From: a virus
Strand: one strand, 5' to 3'
IMG/VR virus record: IMGVR_UViG_3300031785_000012
Location: 1 to 43,314 of that record
DNA length: 43,314 nt
Shown: one piece after another, positions 21,703 through 34,292 of the stretch
Layout of the letters: each line of letters starts with the position of its first letter
Position numbering within the stretch: position 1 is the first letter of the stretch
Program-made: the position numbers and the translations under genes
Notes under the pieces: generated by a model
The model's database searches: none
What the model was told of the DNA's origin: nothing
Seen by the model: only the letters and a program-made list of their open reading frames with translations

Positions 21703-24700
21703 ATGGCACAAGGATTTCGTAGGCAAGGTGAGTGGCAAGTTGGATATACTCCAAGAAGAATTGCCTCTGACGTTAAGAAAAAAGTTGAAGAAACTAAACA
21801 ATTAGAAAAACAAGCAAAAGAAGAAGTCAATAAACGAATACAATCAGCAAATGAATTAAAACAAGAAGAACAAAGAATTACAAATAATTTTTTACGTGTT
21901 ACTCAATATGAAGCTAATTTAGCTGCACAAATGAGTAGCACTGTACAAAATCTTCTTACTAATACAATACCTAGTATAGCTAAAACTGCACAAGATCAAG
22001 CTAGAGCTGAAGGTAGTGCTGATAGATTATTAGAAGAGTTAGAAGCAGAGTTAGCTCCAGATGATGAAAATGAACTAGATCCTGATGATCCAGCTGCTGG
22101 TAACTTTGGTATAACAGAGGGTAGAGGATTTGATGCAGTTGGAGCTGCTTCAGATCAACAATTAGATGTTACAAATACAGCTAATAATTTAGCAACAAAA
22201 ATAGAAAATAGTAATGATCCTTTTGCTAAAGAAAAAGCTAGAAAGGTAAGAGGTATATTTTCTGGTGCATATACATACGGATATGAAGCTAGAGATAAAG
22301 CATTAAAGGCAGAGAATTTTGGGTCTTACCTTGATAATGAACTTCAAACTAATACTACAGAATTATTAGATGGAGATGCACCTTTTAGAATTAATGATGC
22401 TAACCTTACTAAAAGACAACTTGCTATTGCATCTAATTATATTTTAAGTAAATTTACTGAAGATAATAGAGGTGATTTAAGTGATACTCAGACAGTAGCG
22501 TTGTTAGTACAGCCAGCTCAAAAATTAATGAAAGCAAATCTTAAAAAAAGGTTTGAAGATATTGATTTAGAGTTTAAAGCTAGACAGCTAAATGGGTTAG
22601 ATCTTATTTTAGATAATGCTTTAGATAATATAAAAGGAGCTCCAAATCTATCTAATGTTTTAAATAATTATGTTAATTTAGCTAGACCACATCTTAAACC
22701 AACTGCAACATCATCTATTGGTAATCAAGCAATATTAAGATTAGAAAAAAGAATAGAAGATGCTTTTACTAGGTCAGATAATCCTGATTTATTAGAACAA
22801 AGATTAAATCTAGCTTTACAGGTTAAGAGTGCAACTCCTGTAGGATTTAGAAGTTTGTCTGAAATACATCCTAATAAGTTTGGTGTTATACCTATAACAA
22901 TGTTAAAACAAAGAACTGTTGTAGCTAAACATCAAGCAAACAAATCATATCAAAATGCAAGGGTAGAGTCTTCCGTAAGTGATTATCTTCAAACTCAACG
23001 TGAGTTACCAAAAGAAGAAAGAGCGTCAGAGTTTGAACAATTAGAATATGTTAGAGGTTTAATAGAACAAAACCCATTAGTTACTGGAGATGTAGTTGCA
23101 AAGGTTAGCAAACTATTTCTAGATCCTATGGATGAATACGATAGTATTGTAGATATTAAAAGTAAGATTACAAGAAATGGTGGTGTATTAACAAAAGCTG
23201 ATATTGTAGATCCTTCCTTAGATGGTGATGCGGTAGATGCTTACTTAGAAGCTAATCCAAAAGTAAAAGTATTAGATCAATTATACCCAGAGTCTGAGAA
23301 AAAAGATGTAGAAGATGTTACAAAATCATTTAAAACATATTTAGGTGGTTTAAGTTCATCATTCTCAATAGACCAATACGGTAATGTAAAAGATGCCACT
23401 GGTACTTTTAACATTGCTTATGATGCTTTCTTATCAGAAATTAAGTTTAACGCATATCAAAAAATGGATGCAGCTGAAGCTCAAGGTGTTCCTATGACCT
23501 TTGGAGAAGCAATACGTGAAGCTGATAAGGACATGAGAGGTATGATAAATGAAGCTCAAGATCCTAGATTTAAAGATAGTAGATATTATATAGACCCATC
23601 TGAAAATGGTGGTTTTATGAATCTAAGTAAAGAACAAAATGTATACCCATACTTAGAACAAACTAACGTAAAAAATATTATAGAAACTATTAGAGCTGAA
23701 GAAAAAGAAGTTGGAGATCAAATATTTAAAGATGTCACGCTAGATACGGATGGACTGTTTGACAATCCTATTGCTGACAAACTAGCTCAAGTATTTAAAG
23801 TACCTCCATATGAATTTTCTAAAGCACAGAGCGAAGCCTACAACATACCGTTTGATGGTGAAAAGCCTAAAGATTACGAGATAAATAGGAATAAATCAAG
23901 GTATTCAGAGGGTATAAACTCTTTAATAGATCTACAATCTAAAAACAATACAAGCTATAAAGCTATAAATCGTGCATTTAATGAGTTCTTTCCTATGAAT
24001 GAACGTACTTTAACTGAGGCTTGGAAGGGTAAAGATTTTACTAGCGTTATACGTAATGAAATAGCAGCCCCCGCATTAGAATTAGATGCAGGTCAGATAC
24101 AAATTATTGACGGAAAAAAGTATGTAGGTCATAGATTAATAGGTATATCTGATCTAGGTCAATTTGGTGCACAGAGAAAACCAGGAAAAGATGGTACTCC
24201 AGAAGGAGCTAGTGAATATCATGAGGGTATAGATATAGGTACAACATACACTGAAGGTTTCCATACAGCTTTTAACATTAAAAATGGTACTGTAGTTGCT
24301 AATGCTAGTGATGCTAAGTATGGTGTGTATCTTGATATTCAAACTCCAGATGGTGTAATTTACAGGTTTGCACACCTCAAAAGTTATAACCCTGATTTAG
24401 TTATTGGTGCTAAATACAATGGTGAAAGAATTGGTGAAATAGGTACTACAGGAGTAAGTGATGGAGAGCATTTACACTTTGAAAAAATTGTAGATGGTAA
24501 GAGAGTAAATCCAGAAAGTGATTTAAGATTATTAACTATTGGTAGACGACTTGAACCTACCATTGGTAAGTATCCTATAACAAGAAGGATGCTAACAGCA
24601 TTATCAAAAGCACAAGATGAAGATAACCCACTTAAGGGTTTTTCAGCTGCTAAGGCACTGCATCGTTACAGGCAAAATGAAGAGTTACAAAGAGAAACAT

Positions 24701-29501: not shown

Positions 29502-32500
29502 ATGGCAGTTACAACTAAAAAAACTTTTAACGCTGTAGGGGCATCAGGGCAGTCTTCATCGACTGTCTTCACTCCTGTCAGTATACAACTGAATAACCAA
29601 GATGATCTAGATGTTTATGTTACATTGTCGGGTGGAACTAGAGTATTGCAAAATCGTAATACTCTTACTAACGAGACAGCACAAGCGTCTCACCCACAAG
29701 TAAATGATACAACTGGATTATACTTCCCTGCAGTTTCTGTAGGAACACAATTATATAACTATCAACTTTCCAGCGATGACAACACCATTACGTTCAACTC
29801 TGCACTACCTAATGGTGCTGTAGTATTTTGTGAACGTAGAACAAGAGATGAAAGTGGCACATATACAAATTTTACTGCTGGTGGTACTATAAGAGCTAAA
29901 GATCTTAACAACTCAGCACAAGAATCAAACTTTACTGCACAAGATGGTAGAAACAAAGCATTAGAAATAGAAGGAGCAATATTTAATGGAGATGCAATAT
30001 CTTCTAATTATATTACTTCAGATAATATAGTTGACGGTTCAATACAAACAGCTGATATAGCAAATGATGCTATAACTAATGCTAAAATAGCAGATGACCA
30101 AATAGATTCAGAACACTATGTTGACGGTAGTATAGATTCACAACATATTGGTACTGGACAAGTTCAACATGGTAATTTAGCAAACAACTGTATAGACGGT
30201 GATAACATACAAGATGATGTTATTAATTCTGAACACTATGCAGCTGGTTCTATAGATACTGAGCATATTGCAGATGGTCAAGTGACTACTGCTAAAATTG
30301 CAGCAGATGCAATTAATGGCACAAAAATAGCTGACAACAGTATAAATTCAGAACATTATGTAGATGGATCTATAGATCATGAACATTTAGCTAATGATGT
30401 AGTAGATGGAGATAATATAGCAGATGACTCTATTAACTCAGAGCACTATGTTGATGGGTCTATAGATACAGCTCATATAGCTGACTCACAAGTTACAACA
30501 GCAAAAATTGCTGATGATGCAGTTACTTCAGCTAAAATTCTTGATAATGCTGTAACTTCTACTAAATTTGGTAACGGTAGTATAACTACAGCCAAGATTG
30601 CAGATGCAAATGTTACTACAGCAAAAATAGCTGACGGTAATGTAACTCATGCTAAAATACAAGATAATGCAGTAATAACTGCAAAGATAGCTGACGGTAA
30701 TGTAACTCATGTCAAATTAGCAGCTGATGCAGTAGAAGCTGACAATATAAAAGACTCAGAAGTTACAACTGCAAAAATAGCTGACTCTAACATAACTACA
30801 GCAAAAATTGCTGATGATGCGGTAACTGCAGCTAAAATTGCAGACTCAGCTATTGTAACCAATGCTGAACATTCAAGTGCAACTGCAAACGATACATCTT
30901 TCTTTACAACTGCTGCTTCAGACGCTAGATACTTTAACATATCCTCTGGTGAAACCATAAAAGATGGTGATACATTTCCAGATAATGATACAACTATAGC
31001 TACAACTGCAGCTATCAACGACAGAATTATTGACATTGTAAATGATGTTGGTGGTTTTGATATTATAGATAGTGAGCAACATTTTCCTAATACTAACCCA
31101 CAGGGGGCAGCAGGGTCAGCAGCTGTATTAAGTGTTAAAGAAGCATCTGGTAACTTAGCTCCTAGTGGAACAACTCTTACTATAGTAAATGGTAACTTAG
31201 CAAATAATGCTAACATTACTATAACTGGCGTAACGTCTACTATACCTCAAGGCTTTGGATTCTTGGTAGAATCTACAAGTACACTACATACATATACTTT
31301 CCATAGATTAGTACCGAAGGCAACGGAAGTTACAACCGTAGCTGGTAATATAACTAACATAAATGCAGTTGCAAATAATGCGTCTAACATTAACTCAGCT
31401 GTAAGTAATGAGTCTAATATTAATGCTGCTGTAAGTAATGCATCTAACATTAACTCAGCTGTTAGCAACCAATCAAATATTAATGCTGCTGTTAGTAACG
31501 CTTCAAATATTAATGCTGCTGTAGCTAACGCTAGTAATATTAACTCTGCTGTAAGTAATGCTACTAATATTAATACTGTTGCTACAAATATATCAAACGT
31601 AACCAGTGTAGCAAATGCTTTAGACGCTACACAAACATTAACAGTAACTGTACAAAATGTCAGTGGTAGTAATGTCTACTTTATTGACGGTGTACAGACT
31701 CCTGTTTTATTCTTAGCTAGAGGATCAACATATATATTTGACCAATCTGCAAGTAGTAACTCTAGTCATCCTTTACTATTTAGAACTGCTGCCGATGCTG
31801 CATATACTTCAGGTGTAACAACAAGTGGTACAGCTGGTAGTTCAGGTGCTACCGTAACTTTTGTTGTACCAGATAACGCTCCTAACTCATTAAAGTATTA
31901 CTGTTCAGTACATGGTAATTCTATGGGTGCTAATATTACTGTTGTTGATGATCGTGTTGATGTAGTTGCTACAAACATTACAAATGTTACTAACACTGGA
32001 AATTCAATAGCAAATGTTAATACTGTTGCTAGTAATATTACTGATGTTAATAGTGTTGCAACTAATATTAGTGATGTAAGTAATTTTGCTGATGTATACC
32101 AAATTGCTACTAGCAACCCATCAACTAGAGCTGATGGTTCAGCTTTACAAGAAGGTGATTTATATTTTAACAGCACTGCTGACGAACTTAAAGTTTATAG
32201 TGGTAGTGCATGGCAAGGTGGTGTAACAGCTACAGGTAACTTTGCAGTTACAACTGGTAATACATTTACTGGCGATAATGTCTATCAAGATAATGCTAAA
32301 TTAAAACTTGGTACAGGTTCAGACTTAGAAATATTCCATAATGCTAGTGATTCAGTAATTAATGATGTTGGTACAGGTAACTTAAAAATACAATCTGGTG
32401 GTAACACAAAACTAGAGGTTACTGGTACAGGAGCTGCTCTTACAGGTAATTTAGATGTTTCCTCTGGAGTTGATGTAACAGGTGATATAACTCTTACTTC

Positions 32501-34292
32501 AGCTGATGCTGGTGCAACAGCTAATCCAATATTAAAACTTGATAGAAATTCTGCTTCTCCTGCTGATAATGATGTACTAGGAGATGTTCATTTTGTTGGT
32601 AGAAATAGTGCTGGTGAAGAAGTAACCTATGGGTCTTTCATGACTAAAATTGATGACGCTTCTGATGGTACGGAAGATGGTAGATTAATTTATAAGACAA
32701 TGAAAGCTGGTACATTGACTACAGTATTAGATATAAAACCAGACGAATTAAAAGTTAATAATGTAAGTGAAATTCACTTTGGCGATCCAATAGATAGTAT
32801 AAAATTTGAAGGTGCAACGGGTGATGCTTATGAGACAACTATTCAAGTAACAGATCCTACTGCTGATAGAACCATTACAGTTCCAAATGTCACAGGTACA
32901 TTAATAACAACAGGTGATACTGCAAGTGTTTCTACTAATATGATTGCAACTGATGCAGTTACACAAGCTAAGATTGCAGATGATGCAGTTGGTGCGGATC
33001 AATTAGCTAGTAGTGCAGTCGTAACAGCTTCTATCGTAGATGCAAACGTAACAACAGCTAAGATAGCTGACTCTAATGTCACTACAGCTAAGATAGCAGC
33101 TGACGCAGTGACTAATGCTAAGATTGCTGATGATAGTATAGATTCTGAACACTACGTAGATGGTAGTATTGATACTGCACATATAGGAGATGACCAAGTT
33201 ACTACAGCCAAAGTTGCAGATGATGCAATAACTGCTGCAAAACTTGCTGATACGACTGTTACTGCTGGTAGTTATGGATCATCTACAGCTATACCTGCTC
33301 TTACAGTTGATGCTCAAGGTCGTATTACAAGTGCAAGTACAAACTCAGTTAATACTACAACTAACTTAGGAACTTCTACTACTACAACTGCTGTTACAGT
33401 AACTAGCAGTAGTGGAAATGACGCAGTTATAGGTGAAGCAACAGGTAGTGCTGCTGGAGTTATGTCTGTAGCAGATCATAATAAACTTGCGAATATTGAA
33501 GATAATGCAACCCAAGACCAAACTGCTTCTGAAATACTTACACTTGTTAAAACTGTTGATGGTGCAAGTAGTGGATTAGATGCAGACACCCTAGACGGTC
33601 AACATGGTTCTTACTATGCTACTGCTCATAGTCATCCATATGCTGGATCAAGTCATACCCACAGTTATGCTGCAACTAGCCATACTCACTCTGGTTATGC
33701 TTCAGCTCATAGTCATCCGTATGCTGCAACTAGCCATACCCATAGCTACTCTGCAACTGGTCATACTCACTCATACGCAGCTACCAGTCATACTCACTCA
33801 TACGCAGCTACCAGTCATACTCATACTGATAACGATGCTAACGTATTTACTGGCAGTAATATGAGACTTGTATACTCATCTAATAACAGTTTATATGATG
33901 CTGTACAGTATAGTACTTATTTACACCTCGGTGGTACACAAGGTTCTAAGGGTATTTACTACACTGCTTCAGATGAAACATTAAAGAAAAATATAGTTAA
34001 TACTACTTATGATGCAGGGGCACTAATTAAACAGATTAGATTTGTAGATTTTGATTGGAAAGAAACACTACCAGAGGGTGGTCAACATGTTAAATGTGGT
34101 ATTATTGCAAACGAAGTAGAACTATTAGAAGATGAATTAGTATTTCAACCTAAAGATCCTACAACAGGAGACTTAGGAGTTAGACATCTTAATGGTATGC
34201 ATTTTTCAACTATATCTGCTAAAGCTATACAAGAGTTAATTACAAAAGTAGAAACTTTAGAAGCAAAAGTAGCTGCATTAGAGGCTGGATAA
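29502..34292 (+). CDS. Tail fibre, gp17-like, with cupredoxin-like site and S74 chaperone
   Basis: A 1596-aa fibre (T7 gp17 is 553). Residues 1-160 match the T7 fibre N-terminal domain that docks on the tail. Next come TAKIADxxVT-type repeats (about 170-450), S-N-I-N-A-A-V repeats (about 620-700) and a beta domain with H756, C801, H804 and M808 arranged like a type 1 copper site. A second KIAD block (about 1145-1250) precedes a His-rich repeat (HTHSYAATS, about 1372-1445). The C-terminus is a Peptidase_S74 intramolecular chaperone (S1490-DETL-K1495) with a coiled-coil end (VETLEAKVAALEAG). S74 domains trimerise fibres and then cut themselves off. Confidence 0.95.
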   Translation: MAVTTKKTFNAVGASGQSSSTVFTPVSIQLNNQDDLDVYVTLSGGTRVLQNRNTLTNETAQASHPQVNDTTGLYFPAVSVGTQLYNYQLSSDDNTITFNSALPNGAVVFCERRTRDESGTYTNFTAGGTIRAKDLNNSAQESNFTAQDGRNKALEIEGAIFNGDAISSNYITSDNIVDGSIQTADIANDAITNAKIADDQIDSEHYVDGSIDSQHIGTGQVQHGNLANNCIDGDNIQDDVINSEHYAAGSIDTEHIADGQVTTAKIAADAINGTKIADNSINSEHYVDGSIDHEHLANDVVDGDNIADDSINSEHYVDGSIDTAHIADSQVTTAKIADDAVTSAKILDNAVTSTKFGNGSITTAKIADANVTTAKIADGNVTHAKIQDNAVITAKIADGNVTHVKLAADAVEADNIKDSEVTTAKIADSNITTAKIADDAVTAAKIADSAIVTNAEHSSATANDTSFFTTAASDARYFNISSGETIKDGDTFPDNDTTIATTAAINDRIIDIVNDVGGFDIIDSEQHFPNTNPQGAAGSAAVLSVKEASGNLAPSGTTLTIVNGNLANNANITITGVTSTIPQGFGFLVESTSTLHTYTFHRLVPKATEVTTVAGNITNINAVANNASNINSAVSNESNINAAVSNASNINSAVSNQSNINAAVSNASNINAAVANASNINSAVSNATNINTVATNISNVTSVANALDATQTLTVTVQNVSGSNVYFIDGVQTPVLFLARGSTYIFDQSASSNSSHPLLFRTAADAAYTSGVTTSGTAGSSGATVTFVVPDNAPNSLKYYCSVHGNSMGANITVVDDRVDVVATNITNVTNTGNSIANVNTVASNITDVNSVATNISDVSNFADVYQIATSNPSTRADGSALQEGDLYFNSTADELKVYSGSAWQGGVTATGNFAVTTGNTFTGDNVYQDNAKLKLGTGSDLEIFHNASDSVINDVGTGNLKIQSGGNTKLEVTGTGAALTGNLDVSSGVDVTGDITLTSADAGATANPILKLDRNSASPADNDVLGDVHFVGRNSAGEEVTYGSFMTKIDDASDGTEDGRLIYKTMKAGTLTTVLDIKPDELKVNNVSEIHFGDPIDSIKFEGATGDAYETTIQVTDPTADRTITVPNVTGTLITTGDTASVSTNMIATDAVTQAKIADDAVGADQLASSAVVTASIVDANVTTAKIADSNVTTAKIAADAVTNAKIADDSIDSEHYVDGSIDTAHIGDDQVTTAKVADDAITAAKLADTTVTAGSYGSSTAIPALTVDAQGRITSASTNSVNTTTNLGTSTTTTAVTVTSSSGNDAVIGEATGSAAGVMSVADHNKLANIEDNATQDQTASEILTLVKTVDGASSGLDADTLDGQHGSYYATAHSHPYAGSSHTHSYAATSHTHSGYASAHSHPYAATSHTHSYSATGHTHSYAATSHTHSYAATSHTHTDNDANVFTGSNMRLVYSSNNSLYDAVQYSTYLHLGGTQGSKGIYYTASDETLKKNIVNTTYDAGALIKQIRFVDFDWKETLPEGGQHVKCGIIANEVELLEDELVFQPKDPTTGDLGVRHLNGMHFSTISAKAIQELITKVETLEAKVAALEAG
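30020..30870 (+). repeat. Coding repeat array in fibre (TAKIAD / INSEHYVDGSID type)
   Basis: Degenerate repeats of about 10-14 codons encode TTAKIADxx and NSEHYVDGSIDxxHIAD motifs, alternating over about 280 residues. They are likely beta-helical or triple-spiral shaft elements. A shorter block recurs at 32940-33240. DNA copies are diverged in third positions, so the array is old rather than a recent slippage expansion. Confidence 0.85.
33616..33835 (+). repeat. His-rich HTHSYAATS coding repeats in fibre
   Basis: About eight tandem units of 8-10 codons encode [A/S]-H-[T/S]-H-[S/P]-Y-A-A-T-S. HxH repeats of this kind in T4-type fibres coordinate iron along a needle-like trimer. The copies near the end of the array are almost identical at the DNA level (ACTCACTCATACGCAGCTACCAGTCAT repeated), so copy number may vary by recombination. 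Confidence 0.88.

Follow-up and report, generated by a model that had tools for sequence, protein, structure and literature searches.

A conserved cupredoxin domain with a predicted type 1 copper site in the tail fiber shaft of a T7-like podovirus

RESULTS

The tail fiber gene and its features

The window analyzed here (i.e., the whole 43,314-nucleotide stretch, spanning the 43.3-kb virus record IMGVR_UViG_3300031785_000012 of IMG/VR) carries a T7-like podovirus gene set, including genes for an RNA polymerase, a primase/helicase, a DNA polymerase, an exonuclease, a head-tail adaptor, internal virion proteins, and a terminase. Because the terminase is 83% identical to those of the Prochlorococcus podoviruses P-SSP6, 9515-10a, and P-SSP10, the host is likely to be Prochlorococcus-like. 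The tail fiber gene product matched phrog_21412 (1.4e-139) and phrog_892, both tail fiber families in PHROG, and its N-terminal 198 aa show 64% identity to the fiber of Cyanophage 9515-10a. The features of the gene are listed below, with their basis in parentheses.

29502..34292, + strand: tail fiber gene, 1596 aa (ORF; PHROG matches)
31320..31607, + strand: shaft repeats ahead of the domain, SNINxAVSNA type (sequence; aligned to the P-SSP10 fiber shaft)
31608..31946, + strand: predicted cupredoxin domain, fiber residues 703-815, 113 aa (AlphaFold2, Foldseek, VIA-align, profile match of related phage domains)
31767..31769, + strand: His756, predicted first type 1 copper ligand, in His-Pro-Leu (conservation; register with the His of plastocyanin/amicyanin/pseudoazurin)
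31902..31904, + strand: Cys801, predicted copper thiolate ligand (invariant in ligand-bearing copies)
31911..31913, + strand: His804, predicted second His ligand (conservation; alignment)
31923..31925, + strand: Met808, predicted axial ligand, x3 after His (conservation; alignment)
31947..32100, + strand: shaft repeats past the domain (pairwise alignments with P-SSP10, P-SCSP-R27W, and 9515-10a fibers)
33627..33824, + strand: HxH array, residues 1376-1441 (motif scan)
33969..34124, + strand: Peptidase_S74 intramolecular chaperone at the fiber C-terminus, residues 1490-1541 (Pfam PF13884, E 2.2e-8, above cutoff)

An earlier note on this DNA had described a type 1 copper-like ligand set (His756, Cys801, His804, and Met808) in a beta-rich domain of the fiber at positions 31630-31953. 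The four residues lie where it placed them in the open reading frame at 29502-34292; the domain itself is best delimited at 31608-31946 (residues 703-815), a slight shift of its span. Cys801 is one of four cysteines in the whole fiber and the sole cysteine of the domain, for which reason a disulfide role was rejected. The second His and the Met are separated by three residues in the window fiber and by two in the cyanomyophage copies. Only 21 of 20,000 composition shuffles of the fiber (about 0.1%) contained a His followed 35 to 60 residues later by Cys-x2-His-x2-4-Met, so the bare motif is unlikely to have arisen by chance.

Near the C-terminus of the same fiber, the HxH array comprises eight His-x-His motifs, one per nine residues. 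This array is a possible second metal-binding region, and metal sites of two types (type 1 copper-like and HxH) may be present in one fiber. The HxH motifs of T4 gp37 bind iron, as cited in PMC11705849, and iron-binding HxH motifs are also reported for alterophage fibers (R22Y).

Predicted fold and structural matches

The AlphaFold2 model of residues 703 to 815, built from an alignment of 12 copies, is a beta-sandwich with a mean pLDDT of 91.7 and a pTM of 0.83. When compared with the PDB using Foldseek, it matched copper nitrite reductases, two-domain laccases, and multicopper oxidases. The top VIA-align match was the N-terminal type 1 copper domain of the Hyphomicrobium denitrificans nitrite reductase HdNiR (2dv6; Z 10.3, 2.2 Å over 97 residues, 24% identity), followed by copper laccases (Z 9.4 to 10), and the best 50 matches listed were all copper cupredoxin enzymes (Z 9.4 to 10.3). 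Judging from the model and these matches, residues 703 to 815 almost certainly adopt a cupredoxin fold. Structure prediction and comparison with cupredoxins, the check proposed in the earlier note, accordingly returned the fold that it had supposed for its beta-rich domain rather than another. In the VIA-align superposition with 6tfo, model residues 5 to 113 correspond to chain residues 26 to 134, and His804 (model residue 102) falls at most one residue from His122 of 6tfo, the register being defined at the level of these ranges. His122 of the Hyphomicrobium nitrite reductase is a T1CuN ligand (PMC7201279). Short single-domain beta-sandwich proteins from Pithovirus/Marseillevirus (BFVD A0A481Z7Q7, A0A481Z6J5, and A0A481YVH3) matched the same fold.

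Sequence comparison with known cupredoxins

A MAFFT alignment of domain copies with plastocyanin, pseudoazurin, and amicyanin (the last checked against 1aac) contained five invariant columns, four of which are the ligands, and the ligand register obtained with hhalign agreed with it (P 0.0012 and 0.00025). A profile that included cellular copies matched CuNiR, plastocyanin, and amicyanin in the PDB with Cys, His, and Met in register, at weak E values (0.04 to 1); in the plastocyanin match, the first His was also in register. The remark in the earlier note that plastocyanins have four residues before Met was right; amicyanin has two, and the phage domain family has two or three. The first ligand occurs in a His-Pro context, as opposed to His-Asn in small blue copper proteins. 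His-Pro is found at the first ligand of the laccase type 1 site, and a partial profile match to the copper oxidase 6vox likewise reads HPI.

Searches of PDB sequences with single sequences and narrow profiles gave weak matches only, mixed with antibody light chains. The latter were discounted as chance matches on account of the weak alignments and the common YYC motif; no Ig family in Pfam matched the window, and the structural matches listed were cupredoxins. No Pfam or NCBIfam model reached its cutoff for the domain. PF00127 (Copper-bind) did not match the window, and one cellular copy reached 13.6 bits against a cutoff of 21.2. With PF25489 (At5g54830-like), the window domain had a subthreshold score of 21.9 bits (cutoff, 27; E 0.00019 to 0.002) and one cellular copy scored up to 26.9 bits, all copies tested staying below the curated cutoff. 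NCBIfam yielded no match for the window; a single weak amicyanin match (E 0.009) came from another family member.

Conservation and all-or-none loss of the ligands

Relatives of the domain were gathered from IMG/VR and annotated phages. The peptide patterns that defined the initial locus set included the ligands, which makes its 100% conservation partly circular; the searches were repeated blind to the ligands, with one query ending ahead of the first His and another lying between His and Cys. All four ligands were present in 217 of 217 distinct full-length domains, with two or three residues between the second His and Met. They were likewise present in 80 of 80 copies found with the query ending before the first ligand (a subset of the 217) and in 75 of 75 found by the search seeded solely between His and Cys. 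Among 15 representatives with less than 60% identity (26 to 60% pairwise; mean, 42%), the His, Cys, and His were kept at 100%. The ligand set proposed in the earlier note, His ... Cys-x2-His-x3-Met in the window fiber, is thus a complete and conserved type 1 set, and this conservation is the decisive evidence for the observation. The four residues can be regarded as the signature of a domain family, and the putative metal site is very probably under selection. The Ka/Ks ratios of close copies (0.16 to 0.54) reflect ordinary purifying selection and are uninformative with regard to metal. A single copy shows Cys-x4-His-x2-Met, a spacing near that of azurin, in place of Cys-x2-His.

Cyanophage genomes also carry paralogues of the domain with other residues at the ligand positions. 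Such ligand-free paralogues were seen in virion proteins of S-ShM2 (23800-24700, near 24094, and 69700-70700, near 70000) and S-B68 (127600-128500). The His, Cys, His, and Met are all replaced in the S-ShM2 and S-B68 paralogues. The model of a ligand-free paralogue had a pLDDT of 61, too poor to indicate its fold. A search with one of these paralogues retrieved a family of ligand-free copies. The 348 unique copies, which share kinship and whose counts are not those of independent events, comprised 284 with all four ligands, 60 with none, 3 with the first His alone, and 1 with a gap; a partial Cys/His/Met set was found in none of the 348. All-or-none loss is the pattern predicted by one single metal site. 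Because ligand-free paralogues exist, some members of the family presumably do without metal.

An optional insert in the shaft and its distribution

The fiber of P-SSP10 is 55% identical to the window fiber over residues 1 to 707. In pairwise alignments, the cupredoxin domain was absent at the same shaft position from the fibers of P-SSP10, P-SCSP-R27W, and 9515-10a, whose shaft repeats resemble those of the window fiber and lead without interruption into the same downstream segment. Because these three close Prochlorococcus phage fibers run on without it, the domain is optional, an insertion into a structural protein that is exposed. The domain is located about midway along the shaft, away from the C-terminal tip.

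The domain was matched by 189 annotated phage records, named as cyanophages, Pelagibacter or Methylophilales phages, and marine viruses, with one named just "phage." It forms the C-terminus of gp9 (connector) in S-ShM2, where another copy lies inside a baseplate wedge protein. In S-TIM66, a virion protein encoded downstream of the portal gene contains the domain, as do fibers of SAR11 and Methylophilales (OM43 host) phages. The search of other marine fibers for the motif, which the earlier note had proposed, was fruitful, the same four residues recurring across many marine phages in fibers, baseplate, and other virion proteins.

Cells also have copies with the ligands, in a protein of a planctomycete and in secreted-type proteins from the Neomarinimicrobiota phylum (only 3 of 100 genomes drawn); the scan of cellular contigs used a ligand-containing pattern and gives no measure of ligand loss in cells. 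A 335-kb contig of a Neomarinimicrobiota MAG encodes virion- or adhesin-like proteins with degenerate domain copies; it may belong to a jumbo phage that was binned together with the MAG.

DISCUSSION

Proposed role of the domain

The best explanation, which we consider reasonably probable, is that the fiber contains a type 1 cupredoxin domain forming an optional, copper-stapled module of the shaft, copper binding being what we infer. Copper is probably the natural metal of the site. The role of a stapled decoration module, suggested by position and distribution, is put forward tentatively. His756, Cys801, His804, and Met808 would bind one copper ion, and a fiber trimer would display three cupredoxin domains. 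Because the fiber is synthesized in the cytoplasm, which holds little free copper, the metal would be acquired after lysis or from seawater. Once buried, it would lock the beta-sandwich, and the surface of the domain would stiffen the shaft or contact the host surface weakly, a role of the sort supposed for Ig-like decoration domains. Type 1 sites normally carry electrons; since the fiber has no recognizable second redox center, a role in electron transfer is unlikely.

The placement of the domain in midshaft, its optional nature, and its recurrence in baseplate and other virion proteins make a general shaft module that holds copper more likely than a role specific to a receptor or in mimicry of plastocyanin. 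The earlier note had suggested that the site might bind metal for stability, or might mimic or recognize a host copper protein or a metal-loaded receptor. With regard to mimicry, no likeness to plastocyanin was found beyond the ligands (His-Pro rather than His-Asn; no Copper-bind match), and plastocyanin mimicry as the primary role was rejected on the grounds of low identity, His-Pro, and the presence of the domain in phages of nonphotosynthetic hosts.

Recognition can be framed more broadly as an action of the copper-loaded domain in adsorption, where a host copper-uptake or copper protein would recognize it or be docked by it, in the manner of a copper Trojan horse. Prochlorococcus hosts use copper in plastocyanin, and the window phage resembles Prochlorococcus podoviruses in its terminase (83%). 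Both the location of the domain in a fiber and the precedent of HxH iron sites (PMC11705849), together with the marine setting of these phages, are in keeping with this idea. However, the domain lies in midshaft, distant from the C-terminal tip, and is missing from the three close Prochlorococcus phage fibers. The same domain is common to virion proteins across different hosts, including baseplate proteins and proteins of SAR11 and OM43 phages, and receptor contacts are not easily made by a type 1 site, whose coordination is closed. The link to receptor recognition was not supported by these observations, and we regard a role in adsorption as unlikely.

An alternative of similarly low probability is a site with no blue copper center that holds a different metal (Zn(II), or only Cu(I), passively sequestered) or shields the virion against copper or oxidants. 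His2-Cys-Met cupredoxin sites also accept Zn, Co, or Cu(I), but the fold and ligand order specifically match type 1 copper sites, and keeping the Met is characteristic of copper sites. Least probable is a metal-free beta-sandwich spacer whose residues are conserved through shared ancestry or packing: ligand-free relatives in the same phages and the name of the nearest Pfam family (PF25489), which makes no metal claim, would suit it, but no ligand is missing from representatives that are 26 to 60% identical in pairs (mean, 42%), Met is always kept while the His-Met loop varies in length, and no intermediate Cys-His-Met losses occur.

Implications of the proposed copper-holding shaft module

A copper-holding shaft module would provide a functional name for domains now annotated just as tail fiber, baseplate connector, or hypothetical protein. 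The metal sites so far proposed for phage fibers in the literature searched are iron HxH sites, and copper would be a second metal. It is a rather doubtful prospect that marine phage tails bear many working type 1 copper centers and that their copper state affects infection (through adsorption, stability, or host-copper dependence); if so, phages would represent a protein-bound copper pool in the ocean. A widespread and strictly conserved site of the blue-copper type on the tails of abundant marine phages would offer a direct handle (absorbance, EPR, and ICP-MS on virions) on the proposal that phages use trace metals in infection.

Comparison with known systems

The fold and the site are already known in kind. 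A literature search, with subscription journals and preprints outside its coverage, found no cupredoxin, type 1 copper, or plastocyanin-like domain in a phage tail; the location in a tail, the variant with His-Pro and an x2-x3 loop, and the wide occurrence in marine phage tails appear to be undescribed in the literature searched. Ig-like decoration domains are likewise beta-sandwich modules that are optional and mobile, carried by exposed structural proteins of tailed phages, although to our knowledge they have no type 1 metal site. The HxH iron sites of T4 gp37 and alterophage R22Y are proposed metal sites in phage fibers, and the window fiber also has HxH motifs; however, those sites hold octahedral iron between paired His residues of a trimer, whereas the predicted cupredoxin site is a His2CysMet site within one chain. 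Among Pfam families, only the plant At5g54830-like family (PF25489) gave a repeated subthreshold match over most of the domain. Amicyanin, plastocyanin, and pseudoazurin share the His ... Cys-x2-His-xn-Met order, and their ligand columns align with those of the phage domain, but identity is less than 25%, their first ligand is in His-Asn rather than His-Pro, the phage loop is x3 or x2, and they are soluble electron carriers, whereas the phage domain is part of a fiber. The best structural match (Z 10.3), the N-terminal domain of HdNiR (2dv6 and 6tfo), is likewise a tethered single cupredoxin with a type 1 site; it is part of a copper enzyme, whereas the phage domain belongs to a fiber in which neither an enzyme nor a second copper center is recognizable.
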